Source: Treponemataceae bacterium (GTDB lineage: Bacteria; Spirochaetota; Spirochaetia; Treponematales; Treponemataceae). Taken from it: 39,758 bases of DNA. How positions within the stretch are numbered: position 1 is the stretch's first letter; every line of letters begins with the position of its first letter. A program made the translations under genes and the position numbers. The stretch lies in contig JAILBN010000003.1 of the NCBI GenBank assembly GCA_024680915.1, positions 1 through 39,758 on the forward strand, written 5' to 3'. The notes below the pieces were generated by a model, which was not told where the DNA came from, did not search any database, and was given only the letters and a program-made list of their open reading frames with translations. Below, one piece after another: positions 7,542 through 31,234 of this stretch.

Positions 7542-7700
7542 GTGCGTCAGCGAGCTGGCGCCGGGCTTTCCTGGCTTAGCTCGAAACTGCGCGCTTCGTG
7601 CGTGTATCCGTGCGCAGGGACCTGCGCCAAAACTGCTGAGTTCTGCGTCAGTAAAACCCGGTAAGCTCGGGCGACGAGAAAGACGCACGAAAGCCAGCTC
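7542..7700. other. GC-rich intergenic region with overlapping inverted repeats
   Basis: Between two convergent genes. GTGCGTC (7542-7548) can pair with GACGCAC (7682-7688), and GAGCTGGC (7552-7559) with GCCAGCTC (7693-7700). These pairings cross, as in a pseudoknot, or are alternatives. Local hairpins: CGAGCT/AGCTCG enclosing GCCGGG/CCTGGC (7551-7583), and GCGCAG-GGAC-CTGCGC (7612-7627). The GCGCAG arm can also pair with CTGCGC at 7587-7592. No T-tract follows, so it is not a plain terminator. Confidence 0.45.
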
Positions 7701-13858: not shown

Positions 13859-13941
13859 GCGCACATGGATGTGCGCGAAAAGTGGACGAGTTTCGCATAT
13901 GCGAAACTCGATAGGTTGTGCTACATGGATGTTGCACAACC
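13859..13941 (+). repeat. Three-hairpin GGA-loop element, copy A
   Basis: Hairpin 1 (13859-13876): GCGCACA-TGGA-TGTGCGC. Spacer GAAAAGTGGA. Hairpin 2 (13887-13910): perfect 24-nt palindrome with arms CGAGTTTCGC and GCGAAACTCG. Spacer ATA. Hairpin 3 (13914-13941): GGTTGTGC, a T.T mismatch, ACA-TGGA-TGT and GCACAACC. Hairpin 3 contains the lysA stop codon. Copy B has the same order and sizes. Orientation is set by CGCGAAA after hairpin 1 and ACGAGTTT in hairpin 2; in this sense it is antisense to lysA. Confidence 0.85.
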
Positions 13942-15270
13942 GTCCATCAAAGCAAGAATGTCGTCAATTGTTTCCCGTCGCCGGATTACTCTTACGCTTC
14001 CGTCTTTCCCGATAAGAACTTCCGCTGGGCGTGGCCGGCTGTTATAGGGACTGCACATGCTGTAGCCGTAGGCTCCCGTATCAAGGATACATGCTAAGTC
14101 TCCGCGTCTCATAGCCGGAAGCATCCTGGCTTTTGCAAGAATATCTCCGGATTCGCAGATGTTCCCGGTCACAGTCTGTTCTACGAGCACATCATCTCTG
14201 TTGCCGGACGAATCCGCTGAGTCTGTTGAGCCGTCTGCTGTTGAATGCCGAGCTACTGCCTTGCCTTCCCTGAGGACTTCGATATCATGCCAGCTGTCGT
14301 ACATGGAAGGTCTTACCAGCACGTTCATTCCTACGTCAGTACCGCAGTAGGTCACTCCGGAGTTCTGTTTGACAGCGTGGACCCTTCCCAGGATGACGCT
14401 GCCCTCTGCGACACAGAAACGGCCTGGCTCGCTTTTGAAAAGAGGAGCGTAGCCGTAGCGGCTGACGAAGTCATCAAGTATGGGTTCCAGCCTGCTCTTG
14501 AAGTCTTCCATGGGGAAGGGCTTCTCATCCTCAAGCTTGTGGTAGGGGATACCGTAGCCGCCGCCGAAATCGATGAATTCCAGCTTCTTGAAGCCTTCCG
14601 CTATGCGAAGCAGATTGGTCACCGCATCCAGATAGGGCTGGGGATCCATGAAAAGAGAGCCTATGTGCTGGTTTATACCTGCTATGCGGATGCCGTAGCT
14701 GTCCGCAAGCTTGAAAATCTCAGGGATGTCTGCTTCCTGAATACCGAACTTTGTTTTCTTCCCTGCTGTAACTACTTTCTCATGGTGGCCGGCACCTATC
14801 CCTGGGTTTATGCGGACTGCACAGCGTTCCGAGCCGGCGGCGGCTGTTCCGGCTTTTCTCATGCGGCTTTGGGTCTGCCCGTAGAGCTCCAGCTGGGCAA
14901 GGCTGTCCAGACTTGTCATTATTCCCTGTTCTATGGCGAATTCCAGCTCTGTTTCCGCGACATTGTTGGGTACAAAGAAAATACGTTCCTTTGGGAAGCC
15001 TGCCTTGAGCAGCAGCTGTATTTCTCCGGGGCTCATGGCGTCGCAGTTCAGCCCTTCCTCCAGGGCCAGCTTGAGTATGTGTATGTTAGTGTTGGCTTTT
15101 ACCGAATAGTTGGCGGTGTAGGGATATTTCGTTATGACGCGGGCGACTTCGTGCATCCGCTCGCGAAGAATCCTCTCGTTATATACATAGAGCGGAGTGC
15201 CGTATGTTTGGGCAAGCTTTTCAGGTTCGTTTCCTACAAAAAAATCAGATTGCGTAATGTATGATTCCAT
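13921..15270 (-). CDS. lysA: Diaminopimelate decarboxylase
   Basis: 449 residues, slightly long for the family. PLP-dependent alanine-racemase-fold enzyme that converts meso-diaminopimelate to L-lysine in the cytoplasm. K58 in NYSVKANTN is the PLP lysine. Further blocks are HIGSLF, the glycine loop FIDFGGGYGIPYH, SEPGRF, CESGD and YGYSMCSPYNSRPRPAEV. A Ser/Asp/Thr-rich stretch around residues 345-365 (HSTADGSTDSADSSGNRDD) is an insertion relative to usual LysA. The last five codons (CATSM) and the stop come from hairpin 3 of repeat copy A. The start has AAGGAATAAGC upstream. Ddh lies upstream on the same strand, separated by a terminator. Confidence 0.95.
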   Translation of the reverse strand: MESYITQSDFFVGNEPEKLAQTYGTPLYVYNERILRERMHEVARVITKYPYTANYSVKANTNIHILKLALEEGLNCDAMSPGEIQLLLKAGFPKERIFFVPNNVAETELEFAIEQGIMTSLDSLAQLELYGQTQSRMRKAGTAAAGSERCAVRINPGIGAGHHEKVVTAGKKTKFGIQEADIPEIFKLADSYGIRIAGINQHIGSLFMDPQPYLDAVTNLLRIAEGFKKLEFIDFGGGYGIPYHKLEDEKPFPMEDFKSRLEPILDDFVSRYGYAPLFKSEPGRFCVAEGSVILGRVHAVKQNSGVTYCGTDVGMNVLVRPSMYDSWHDIEVLREGKAVARHSTADGSTDSADSSGNRDDVLVEQTVTGNICESGDILAKARMLPAMRRGDLACILDTGAYGYSMCSPYNSRPRPAEVLIGKDGSVRVIRRRETIDDILALMDGCATSM

Positions 15271-28398: not shown

Positions 28399-29610
28399 AT
28401 GAATGCTTTTATCAATACGATTATTTTCGATGTGCTGATAATGATTGCCGTTATTTACGCATTGGTTCTGCTCTTTTCTTTCATAGGATTTTTGGTAACC
28501 CTTGGTACGGAAAAAGCTCCTGCGGGAGAAAAAAGACGTAAATTTCCAATTTTCCGTGACCAGCTCCGCCATTATGGGGCTCTTATAGCTAAAGAGGCCT
28601 TCCCCATACTGATAATCTGCGCGGTCATAATCGTGCTTAATTTAAGTTTCAGGTTCTCTGGGGAAATAAAGACCTGGTTCGCTGCCCGTGTCAGTTATGA
28701 TACAGTTCCTGTCATCGCAGCGGCAGTGGACGGTATCGCCTTGATATGGCCTCTCGTCAAACCCTTCCTCCTTCCTCTTCTTGCTGTTATCGGGCTCCTT
28801 CTTATTCTCTATGCCATAAAAGATTCTTCCGATGCAAGGGTGGCTGCTATGATAAACAACGGAGGAAGAAAGCTTCGTAGTCATGAGAGCCTTTTTCTTT
28901 TTTTCAATTCCCTTGAGAAAGGTTTTTTGAAGATATGCGGCAAGCTCCCCCTTGCAGCGATAATCCTGGCTGTGCTTGTGTGTGTTAATTCCTTGCTTAT
29001 GACAGGGGGTACCCTTAAGAAGATTCTTCAGGCAGGGGAACGTATAAAGGAGCTTCAGACTATAGTCAAGAATCTTTCCCGCTCAGAGACCGTGGCGAAA
29101 GTATCGTTGGAGAGCATGAAGACTCTTCCCGGCCGTAAAAAGCCGGTAAGGCTTTATTCTGTGGAAGTTTTGTCCGCCGCCGGGGATACTGTGTCAAAGC
29201 AGCAGATTGAGCTTGAAGGCTCTGAGTTTGTGATAGACTGCATAAACATAAATTTTGATTATTCCCAGATTTCTTCTGGTGAGCAGAAGAACTTGGCCTA
29301 TCCCTACCGGGTGTATTCCGAGCTTATCCCGGCGGCGGAGGGAATCCAGCTTGACTGTATGTTCAATGAGGAAGGTCTTCCTTTTAATTTCTGTCTGGAT
29401 GATAAGGAGATATACGGGATAAATCCTGAAGCCTTCTATGCCCGTCTTGGTGAGCTTATGAAGGTCTTGAAGAATGAGGATCTGAGTCGTGAGATGGGTA
29501 TTCGTAGTACGATAGGAAATGCTCCCCGGCTTCGTATGAATATCGGTGATGTCTATTACATCGATGTCGAGCAGACCGGTGGAATCAGTGCGTACAAGAA
29601 ACAGTTCTAA
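28399..29610 (+). CDS. Polytopic membrane protein of unknown function
   Basis: 403 residues with about four or five hydrophobic helices in the first 210 residues (near 8-32, 65-85, 105-140, 180-205). A short helical linker (IKELQTIVKNLSRSE) leads to a soluble C-terminal domain (about 235-403) that looks related to the gene before it. AGAGGAG stands before the ATG. Its final 31 bases, including the stop, are repeated exactly 147 bases downstream, with repeat copy B between. No family recognised. Confidence 0.65.
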   Translation: MNAFINTIIFDVLIMIAVIYALVLLFSFIGFLVTLGTEKAPAGEKRRKFPIFRDQLRHYGALIAKEAFPILIICAVIIVLNLSFRFSGEIKTWFAARVSYDTVPVIAAAVDGIALIWPLVKPFLLPLLAVIGLLLILYAIKDSSDARVAAMINNGGRKLRSHESLFLFFNSLEKGFLKICGKLPLAAIILAVLVCVNSLLMTGGTLKKILQAGERIKELQTIVKNLSRSETVAKVSLESMKTLPGRKKPVRLYSVEVLSAAGDTVSKQQIELEGSEFVIDCININFDYSQISSGEQKNLAYPYRVYSELIPAAEGIQLDCMFNEEGLPFNFCLDDKEIYGINPEAFYARLGELMKVLKNEDLSREMGIRSTIGNAPRLRMNIGDVYYIDVEQTGGISAYKKQF

Positions 29611-29611
29611 G
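29581..29611 (+). repeat. 31-bp direct repeat, left copy (3' end of the membrane-protein gene)
   Basis: Starts GGAATCAGTGCGTACAAGAA and ends in the stop codon plus G. It is identical to 29728-29758. Confidence 0.95.
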
Positions 29612-29642: not shown

Positions 29643-29724
29643 GCGGTCATGGATGACCGCGAAAGCAACGAGTTTTGTGCAAACAAAACTCGTGAAGTTC
29701 TGACAGCACGGATGCTGGAAGAAC
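29643..29724 (+). repeat. Three-hairpin GGA-loop element, copy B
   Basis: Hairpin 1 (29643-29660): GCGGTCA-TGGA-TGACCGC. Spacer GAAAGCA. Hairpin 2 (29668-29693): ACGAGTTTTGT / ACAAAACTCGT with loop GCAA. Spacer GAA. Hairpin 3 (29697-29724): GTTCT, GA/GA internal loop, CAGCA-CGGA-TGCTG and AGAAC. Sizes match copy A to within a few bases, but the stems differ in sequence and stay paired. It lies between the two 31-bp direct repeats, 40 bases before the next start codon. Confidence 0.85.
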
Positions 29725-29727
29725 GTA

Positions 29728-29758
29728 GGAATCAGTGCGTACAAGAAACAGTTCTAAG
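29728..29758 (+). repeat. 31-bp direct repeat, right copy
   Basis: Exact copy of 29581-29611, so a duplicate of the last ten codons of the upstream gene. It also supplies the AAG of the AAGGGG Shine-Dalgarno of the symporter gene. Confidence 0.95.
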
Positions 29759-29764
29759 GGGTAT

Positions 29765-31234
29765 ATGATGAGTGATTCAAAGACACAGGAAATTACAAAA
29801 CCGCTTGATAAGCGGACAAAGTGGAGCTACTGCGTGGGTGCGACTGGCCGCGATATGGCCTATGCGCTTGTGAGTATGTACCTTATAACCTATATACAGT
29901 ATACGATGAAGCTTACTGTCGCTCAGTATGGTGCAATTTCGGCAATCCTTGTGGCGTGCCTTATCTGGGATGCCATCAATGATCCGATGATGGGTATCAT
30001 AATAGAGAATGCCCGTTTCAAAAGCGGTAAATATCGCCCTTGGATTTTACTTGGCGTAATACTCAATGCCATAGTGATAATCCTTTTGTTCACCTTACGT
30101 CCGGAAGGATGGGCTTTCGTTGTCTTCTTCGGAATAAGTTACCTCTGCTGGGGAATGACCTTCACTATGAATGATATATCCTATTGGGGACTTCTTCCCA
30201 GTCTTTCCAGTGATCCTAAGGAGCGTAATTCCCTGGTTTCCCTCATGAGTATTTTCTGTTGTATCGGGCAGTTCGCCATAGCGGGAGTCATCCCTATAGT
30301 AGTCGCAGGAAATGCCGTGAATGCATATCGTATCGCGGCTCTGGTCGTGGCTCTTTGTTTCCTTGCCTTCCAGCTGCTCACCTTTTTCGGTGTGAAAGAG
30401 CGCAAAAGAAGCTCAGTGTCGGAGCAAAAAAAGCTTTCCCTCAAGGATATGTTCAAAATCTTCCTGAGAAACGATCAGCTTGTTATCGCCGGAATCGCCT
30501 GTCTTCTTTTCAACATAGGAAATGGTCTTCTTATCCTTTTGGGAATGAACTTTTTCTATTTTGAATTCGGCTATTCTGAGGGAGGAAGCCTTATTTTCAC
30601 CTTTACAGTCATGTATGGCGTGGGAACCCTGGTATCCCAGGGCTGTTATGCCACGATCGCTAAGAAATTCACAAGACGTTCCATGCTGCGCTTCCTTACC
30701 ATAGCGATTATAGTAAGCTATTTCCTTTTCCTCATAACAGGTCGGATAATCCCGGAGAACCCGATAATACTGAACATAGAGGGCTTCCTTATTTTCTTCT
30801 TCCAGGGCCTTTTCAACATGAATGTTATCGTTATGCTCAACAATACCATTGAGTATGATGAATACCGTTTCCAAGAGCGCCATGACAGTATTATCTCTGC
30901 TGTTCGCTCCTTTGCGGTGAAGCTTTCCAGCGCAATCAATCAGGGAATACAAGCCCTTATCCTTATCGTCAGTGGAATTTATGCCATAAGCCAGAATATT
31001 TCGGCCTTAGAGGTTGAGGCAGGAAAAGGCGCTATTTCTTCCGAGGAAGTTCTCGTGGCAGCTGATGCATACATAAAGACAGCTACCTCGACGCAGCTTC
31101 TTATCCTCCGTATTGGAATAACTCTTATACCGGTAGCGGTTATAGTGGCTGCTGACCTTCTTCTTAAGAAAAAATATAAGATTGATGAGGTGGAGTATAA
31201 GCGTCTTGTCAAGGAAATTGAGGATCGTCATTAG
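29765..31234 (+). CDS. GPH-family glycoside/hexuronide:cation symporter (MelB-like, MFS)
   Basis: 489 residues with 12 membrane helices. GATGRDMAYALVSMYLITYI at the first helix and DAINDPMMGIIIE...GKYRPWILLG are the family's N-terminal signatures (DP and RPW). WGMTFTMNDISYWGLLPSL matches the next conserved loop, and IEYDEYRF lies in the second half. It imports a sugar, glycoside or hexuronide with sodium or protons. I start at ATG 29765 (a second ATG follows directly), with AAGGGG upstream; the frame is open from 29735. First gene of a packed three-gene operon. Confidence 0.9.
   Translation: MMSDSKTQEITKPLDKRTKWSYCVGATGRDMAYALVSMYLITYIQYTMKLTVAQYGAISAILVACLIWDAINDPMMGIIIENARFKSGKYRPWILLGVILNAIVIILLFTLRPEGWAFVVFFGISYLCWGMTFTMNDISYWGLLPSLSSDPKERNSLVSLMSIFCCIGQFAIAGVIPIVVAGNAVNAYRIAALVVALCFLAFQLLTFFGVKERKRSSVSEQKKLSLKDMFKIFLRNDQLVIAGIACLLFNIGNGLLILLGMNFFYFEFGYSEGGSLIFTFTVMYGVGTLVSQGCYATIAKKFTRRSMLRFLTIAIIVSYFLFLITGRIIPENPIILNIEGFLIFFFQGLFNMNVIVMLNNTIEYDEYRFQERHDSIISAVRSFAVKLSSAINQGIQALILIVSGIYAISQNISALEVEAGKGAISSEEVLVAADAYIKTATSTQLLILRIGITLIPVAVIVAADLLLKKKYKIDEVEYKRLVKEIEDRH

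Follow-up and report, generated by a model that had tools for sequence, protein, structure and literature searches.

TD-2 RNA (RF03162) is grouped with TD-1 (RF03155) in Rfam clan CL00124. The two families have the middle hairpin in common and cross-match on opposite strands; TD-1 differs in being labelled cis-regulatory, in lying on the other strand and in having outer loops that lack the GGA motif when read on the TD-2 strand. No published function for TD-2 was found in the literature searched. TwoAYGGAY RNA (RF01731), whose hosts are Clostridiales, gamma-proteobacteria and gut metagenomes (PMC2864571), has two terminal AYGGAY loops and is a predicted binder of CsrA (PMC4333381). GGA in hairpin loops, with several sites per RNA and ANGGAN seated on a stem, is also characteristic of sRNAs of the CsrB/RsmZ type. 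REP/RAYT and MITE repeats are short, dispersed intergenic palindromes with copies at non-orthologous sites.

The window analysed here, a stretch of 39,758 nt from the genome of a Treponemataceae bacterium (G000), contains two copies, A and B, of a three-hairpin element and a degenerate third one. Their features are given below with bit scores for RF03162, for a covariance model of genus copies (R1) and for a second, loop-blind model (R2).

13859 to 13945, plus strand: TD-2 element, copy A (RF03162 41.9 bits, model positions 1-98; R1 89.7 bits; R2 77.8 bits)
13859 to 13876, plus strand: copy A hairpin 1, GCGCACA-TGGA-TGTGCGC, with the CsrA-like loop C-ATGGAT-G (sequence and fold)
13887 to 13910, plus strand: copy A hairpin 2, the CGAGTTT spacer hairpin with perfect 12-nt arms (sequence and fold)
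13914 to 13941, plus strand: copy A hairpin 3, loop C-ATGGAT-G, which includes the minus-strand stop codon of lysA (sequence, ORF and fold)
29643 to 29728, plus strand: TD-2 element, copy B (RF03162 36.4 bits, model positions 1-98; R1 85.1 bits; R2 75.3 bits)
29643 to 29660, plus strand: copy B hairpin 1, loop C-ATGGAT-G (sequence and fold)
29668 to 29693, plus strand: copy B hairpin 2 (sequence and fold)
29697 to 29724, plus strand: copy B hairpin 3, loop C-ACGGAT-G (sequence and fold)
7612 to 7696, plus strand: degenerate third TD-2-like copy (R1 45 bits; R2 41.9 bits; fold z = -0.8)

The preliminary description had placed all stems and loops of A and B correctly. Folding compared with dinucleotide shuffles supported the three hairpins in both copies (z = -6.7 for A and -7.8 for B), and the third copy showed no stable fold against shuffles. 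All four outer loops of A and B match CANGGANG and three of them the fuller form A/U-CANGGANG-U/A, as had been proposed. The number of copies had been underestimated at two: the genus model gave about ten matches in this genome at E < 0.05 after removal of opposite-strand duplicates, some of them marginal, and the degenerate copy in the window is among them.

A scan of the window with Rfam at gathering thresholds gave no match, and TD-2 was seen only in a permissive search, which aligned both sites with the full RF03162 model. E-values were 4e-5 for A and 6e-4 for B in searches of 401 bases, and 7.6e-5 (A, ranking first) and 1.1e-3 (B, ranking third) genome-wide. Both copies score under the family's gathering score of 48.7 bits; three copies from other genomes of the genus pass it (48.8-55.4 bits). 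TD-2 matches were found in six of the seven genus genomes, with several copies each, and in 86 of 145 sampled genomes of the family. Judged by these alignments, A and B are divergent TD-2 homologues that lie below the curated score and are not curated members. The element is therefore not new but a relative of an already catalogued family.

With TD-2, A and B share the three-hairpin layout across the 98-position model, Treponema hosts, AYGGAY loops in hairpins 1 and 3 and the GAGUUU/AAACUC arms of hairpin 2. They differ from the Rfam consensus in a shorter linker between hairpins 1 and 2 and in fewer A-U pairs in hairpin 3. The stem layout of TwoAYGGAY is different from that of A and B, and RF01731 is a doubtful identity: it had no match in this genome, but control genomes gave none either.

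The complete genome G051 (2,843,201 bases) yielded 60 TD-2 matches, one opposite-strand duplicate being set aside. About half of them have no GGA loops, and two such matches checked with Rfam proved to be TD-1 on the opposite strand. At TD-1-type loci of G051 (for example L210 and L212), 22 of the 31 GGA-less copies lie between two genes on the TD-1 strand, and some of these loci are flanked by repeats of CTCCTATAAAAACTTTTT. At some loci of the same genome (L239, G051:C1:1952795-1953156, and others) two to four TD-2 units follow one another in tandem, repeating about every 93-96 nt. In one otherwise normal copy (L200, G051:C1:1084712-1084806) the loop of hairpin 3 is inverted: it reads CGTCCATG, which is CATGGACG in reverse complement. 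The TD-2 loop and hairpin-2 pattern is also matched in a record with the title Prevotella sp. P5-50 (NZ_NPJA01000013.1, 4483-4540; L112), which might reflect transfer, contamination or chance.

Covariation was analysed in an alignment of 12 genus copies, from which R1 was also built. In the three-hairpin structure 96.6% of the pairs are standard, and 18 of 27 pairs have changed on both sides. The covariation score of 0.499 compares with 0.141 for shuffled alignments and 0.03-0.11 when the structure was slid, bearing out the compensatory changes first claimed from the two copies. The pair closing the loops of hairpins 1 and 3 is C-G in all 12 copies. R1 detected 71 matches in the collected genus loci, of which a few are opposite-strand duplicates and one is the decayed copy in the window. 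The covariance-model search suggested by the preliminary description thus revealed further copies in this genome and the genus, with covarying stems and conserved GGA loops.

GGA loops could be an artefact of a model trained on GGA. R2 was therefore built with masked loops to reduce circularity; A and B (77.8 and 75.3 bits) are both in its training set, and the loci scanned had been collected with loop-aware models, so that some GGA bias may remain. Among the 66 non-redundant R2 matches, CA(N)GGANG occurs in hairpin 1 of 45, in hairpin 3 of 40 and in hairpin 2 of none. Within this motif C, A, G, G, A and G hardly change, and free variation is confined to the two N. The artefact was rejected on this basis, again with the reservation that some bias may remain; even with the loop-blind model GGA is conserved across copies and species. 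The structure is under selection.

Different species carry copies at corresponding sites of two genes: lysA, with copy A and L151 of G003, and ilvE, with a copy each in G000 and G006. At these two loci GGA is retained in the loops, and the stems differ in sequence with pairing maintained. In the lysA copies hairpin 2 is nearly unchanged and hairpin 3 wholly different in sequence.

That the hairpins arose by chance is hardly credible. The motif CAYGGATG by itself is no rarity in the window, since equally many matches turned up in 13 of 100 shuffles. It is the whole architecture that departs far from chance; full-length Rfam matches, covariation far above shuffles, detection by a loop-blind model and several copies in six of the seven genus genomes all argue against coincidence.

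The surroundings of copy B contain a long direct repeat.

29581 to 29611, plus strand: direct repeat, first 31-nt copy, comprising the end of the upstream gene and its stop codon (exact match to 29728-29758; none expected by chance)
29728 to 29758, plus strand: direct repeat, second copy, beginning at the 3' end of copy B (target duplication; single copy at the orthologous site of G003)

In G003 this site has the gene end once, then directly the start of the next gene, and no element. This empty site, together with the 31-nt repeat at B, indicates that insertion with target duplication has spread the copies. Exact 37-nt repeats flank the pfp copy of G004 and touch both ends of the element. For 12 of 65 genus copies a direct repeat was found to start at, or only a few bases from, the 3' end of the element. 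Control positions at least 60 bases further on gave 0-1 repeats, and a control at +30 gave five, which lie inside the longer repeats themselves. Three of the 12 repeat-bearing copies, all from G001, share the motif GAGAACCGTCCCC and may not be independent. The distance from the end of the upstream repeat to hairpin 1 is variable (-31 to +18). Most copies lack a repeat of this kind, which would fit with their being old. The copies thus appear to have been inserted with duplication of adjacent DNA; the direct repeats are a new observation, and from them we infer the means of spread. The earlier account overlooked the repeats that mark copy B as an insertion.

Several observations concern other inserts at gene ends. 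The copy-B site of G006 (L179, G006:C279, after 9568) holds a different hairpin-rich insert, which also lies between repeats of the same gene's end, AAGCAGTTTTAG; this gene end was thus used twice. A shorter variant, which lacks both hairpin 1 and the GGA loops, was found at gene ends in G001 (L133, G001:C30:20427-20498, and L148, G001:C48) and in G000 (L140, G000:C106). The L133 variant, located at ppdK, is flanked by a 25-nt repeat of the gene end; GGA loops would accordingly not be required for spread. At ilvE, the duplicated gene end (L157 of G000 and L165 of G006) encodes WVVEIK in either species, whereas for the gene proper this ending occurs in G000 and WIYEIK in G006, G001, G002 and G003, a distribution that suggests conversion of the gene end in G000.

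GAGAACCGTCCCC stands on both sides of the three G001 copies (among them L130, G001:C26:3904-17325, and L081), and the sole Y1 transposase gene of the genus (G001 C26:13850-14176) is about 1 kb from one of them. GAGAACCGTCCCC may be the REP sequence of this transposase. Searches for Y1 transposase (PF01797) were negative in this genome and in five of the six other genus genomes, which are draft assemblies, and a RAYT was discarded as the mobiliser because the enzyme is missing from most of the genus.

The insertion signature raises the possibility that the element is a REP- or MITE-like DNA repeat, with hairpins and loops that serve, as single-stranded DNA (or an RNA intermediate), a recombinase or reverse transcriptase by which it spreads, and that play no part with CsrA. 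We regard this as a real but doubtful possibility. The anchored target duplications and the empty site fit it, as do the near-identical copies that G003 and G006 carry at sites that are not orthologous, the near-neutral gene orientation described below and the repeat-flanked L133 insert without hairpin 1 and GGA loops. An enzyme acting on DNA, however, would not predict stems that vary with pairing kept, a loop that alone is fixed and free positions that coincide with the N of a CsrA site; GGA loops also persist in the old lysA and ilvE copies. This genome, unlike REP/RAYT and MITE systems, has no Y1 transposase match, and TD-2 duplications measure about 13-60 nt. To our knowledge, duplications of about 13-60 nt are not a trait of that class.

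The loops themselves point to CsrA. The high-affinity RsmE site is an ANGGAX hexaloop directly on a stem (PMC4005645), and A and B each present two ANGGAN hexaloops in this way. The freely varying loop positions of TD-2 are the two N of the CsrA/RsmE ANGGAN site (PMC4005645, PMC7652899), and the loops are close to the CsrA SELEX consensus RUACARGGAUGU (PMC7652899). The two GGAs of an element are 59-60 nt apart, and a CsrA dimer bridges sites 10-63 nt apart (PMC7652899); the idea that two loops and a spacer hairpin would suit one dimer therefore agrees with the measured spacing. Two features count against CsrA: at least one loop is off the motif in about a third of the copies, and the TD-2 stems, with 6-11 pairs, are longer than those of most CsrA SELEX ligands (PMC7652899). 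TwoAYGGAY and Bacillaceae-1 were predicted as CsrA binders on the same kind of evidence (PMC4333381), and CsrA binding by TD-2 is likewise a good inference from sequence.

The gene for CsrA is present. T. denticola CsrA has been noted within a flagellar gene cluster (PMC9481697), and in this genome csrA (G000:C75:38299-38454, 85.5 bits) adjoins fliW; its absence would have refuted the original proposal. Across the family csrA is near-universal (138 of 145 genomes) and TD-2 patchy (86 of 145). No TD-2 was detected in G002, which does have csrA; CsrA therefore does not depend on TD-2. With csrA this widespread, a correlation between the two across the family was of no use. Two TD-2-bearing genomes apparently lacking csrA, G001 and G104, were considered as a natural experiment and set aside, since the assemblies may account for the apparent loss. 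G001 is missing csrA, fliW, flgL, tsaE and tsaB together, with flagellins and fliD present; the joint loss of flgL, tsaE and tsaB with csrA and fliW looks like an assembly gap. In G104, fliW lies at a contig end.

Compared with CsrB/RsmZ-type sRNAs, A and B have only two sites, occur in many genomic copies and lack a terminator. We know of no Csr sponge RNA in these bacteria.

Neighbouring genes were assigned from simple ORF calls and not by a gene finder. Those next to A and B are as follows.

13921 to 15270, minus strand: lysA-like PLP decarboxylase gene, ending within hairpin 3 of copy A (Pfam PF02784 and PF00278; ORF)
28399 to 29610, plus strand: gene upstream of copy B, whose 3' end is the duplicated target (ORF; no Pfam match)
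29768 to 31234, plus strand: MFS_2 sugar transporter gene downstream of copy B, on the same strand (Pfam PF13347)

Copy A is indeed antisense to lysA, whose stop codon on the minus strand falls in hairpin 3. Copy B lies in sense between two co-directional genes, the second being the MFS_2 transporter. Across the genus, the genes on either side ran (-,-) with respect to the element in 22 cases, (+,-) in 20, (+,+) in 12 and (-,+) in 6; sense and antisense placements are thus about equally frequent, and this lack of sense bias argues against a simple cis role. A 3'UTR element that acts in cis to end or stabilise the mRNA of the preceding gene is distinctly unlikely. Many copies do lie a few bases past a stop codon, and copy B follows its gene in sense, but a sense gene upstream is missing for about half of the copies, A among them with its antisense position to lysA. 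Hairpin 3 is not followed by a T-run, and the G051 copies do not follow gene ends in sense. A sense-strand 3'UTR element is thus unsupported by the orientation counts. Neither at A nor at B was an intrinsic terminator found after hairpin 3.

Rfam's type label for TD-2 (Gene; sRNA) would suit independent sRNA genes with a promoter each, and one plus-strand promoter-like site does lie 70 bases upstream of copy A. This site is at chance level, promoter-like sites being no more frequent in our scan than in shuffles, and the copies have unrelated upstream sequences, in which inspection by eye revealed no common promoter; we consider such genes very unlikely. For copy B, transcription of the GGA strand by read-through is plausible from the gene arrangement.

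Taken together, we find it somewhat probable that A and B belong to a dispersed Treponema homologue of TD-2 that acts as a CsrA-binding reservoir or local transcript modifier and spreads by target-duplicating insertion. A and B are copies of one small dispersed element. RNA of the plus strand folds into three hairpins, of which 1 and 3 display an ANGGAN hexaloop on a stem closed by C-G, and hairpin 2 is a spacer conserved in sequence. Where the GGA strand is copied, by read-through or by local transcription, one element would most likely bind one CsrA dimer. The copies could then form a distributed, sponge-like reservoir that binds CsrA, or change the host transcript locally. Spread would proceed via insertion that duplicates adjacent target DNA, and some copies would afterwards be retained with structure and loops intact. 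Fairly improbable, and held only tentatively, is the further-reaching proposal that the element is a mobile, RNA-structured repeat bringing with it a complete CsrA platform of two sites. It would make long, variable target duplications, with a precise 3' and a variable 5' junction reminiscent of target-primed reverse transcription, and the CsrA-binding sites so seeded would buffer the Csr network of Treponema or rewire it.

The loop pattern provides a concrete candidate partner, CsrA, for the catalogued TD-2 RNA, and the insertion signature would account for its multicopy state and its patchiness between species. If both CsrA binding and insertion are true, a spreading repeat would distribute sites for a global post-transcriptional regulator.
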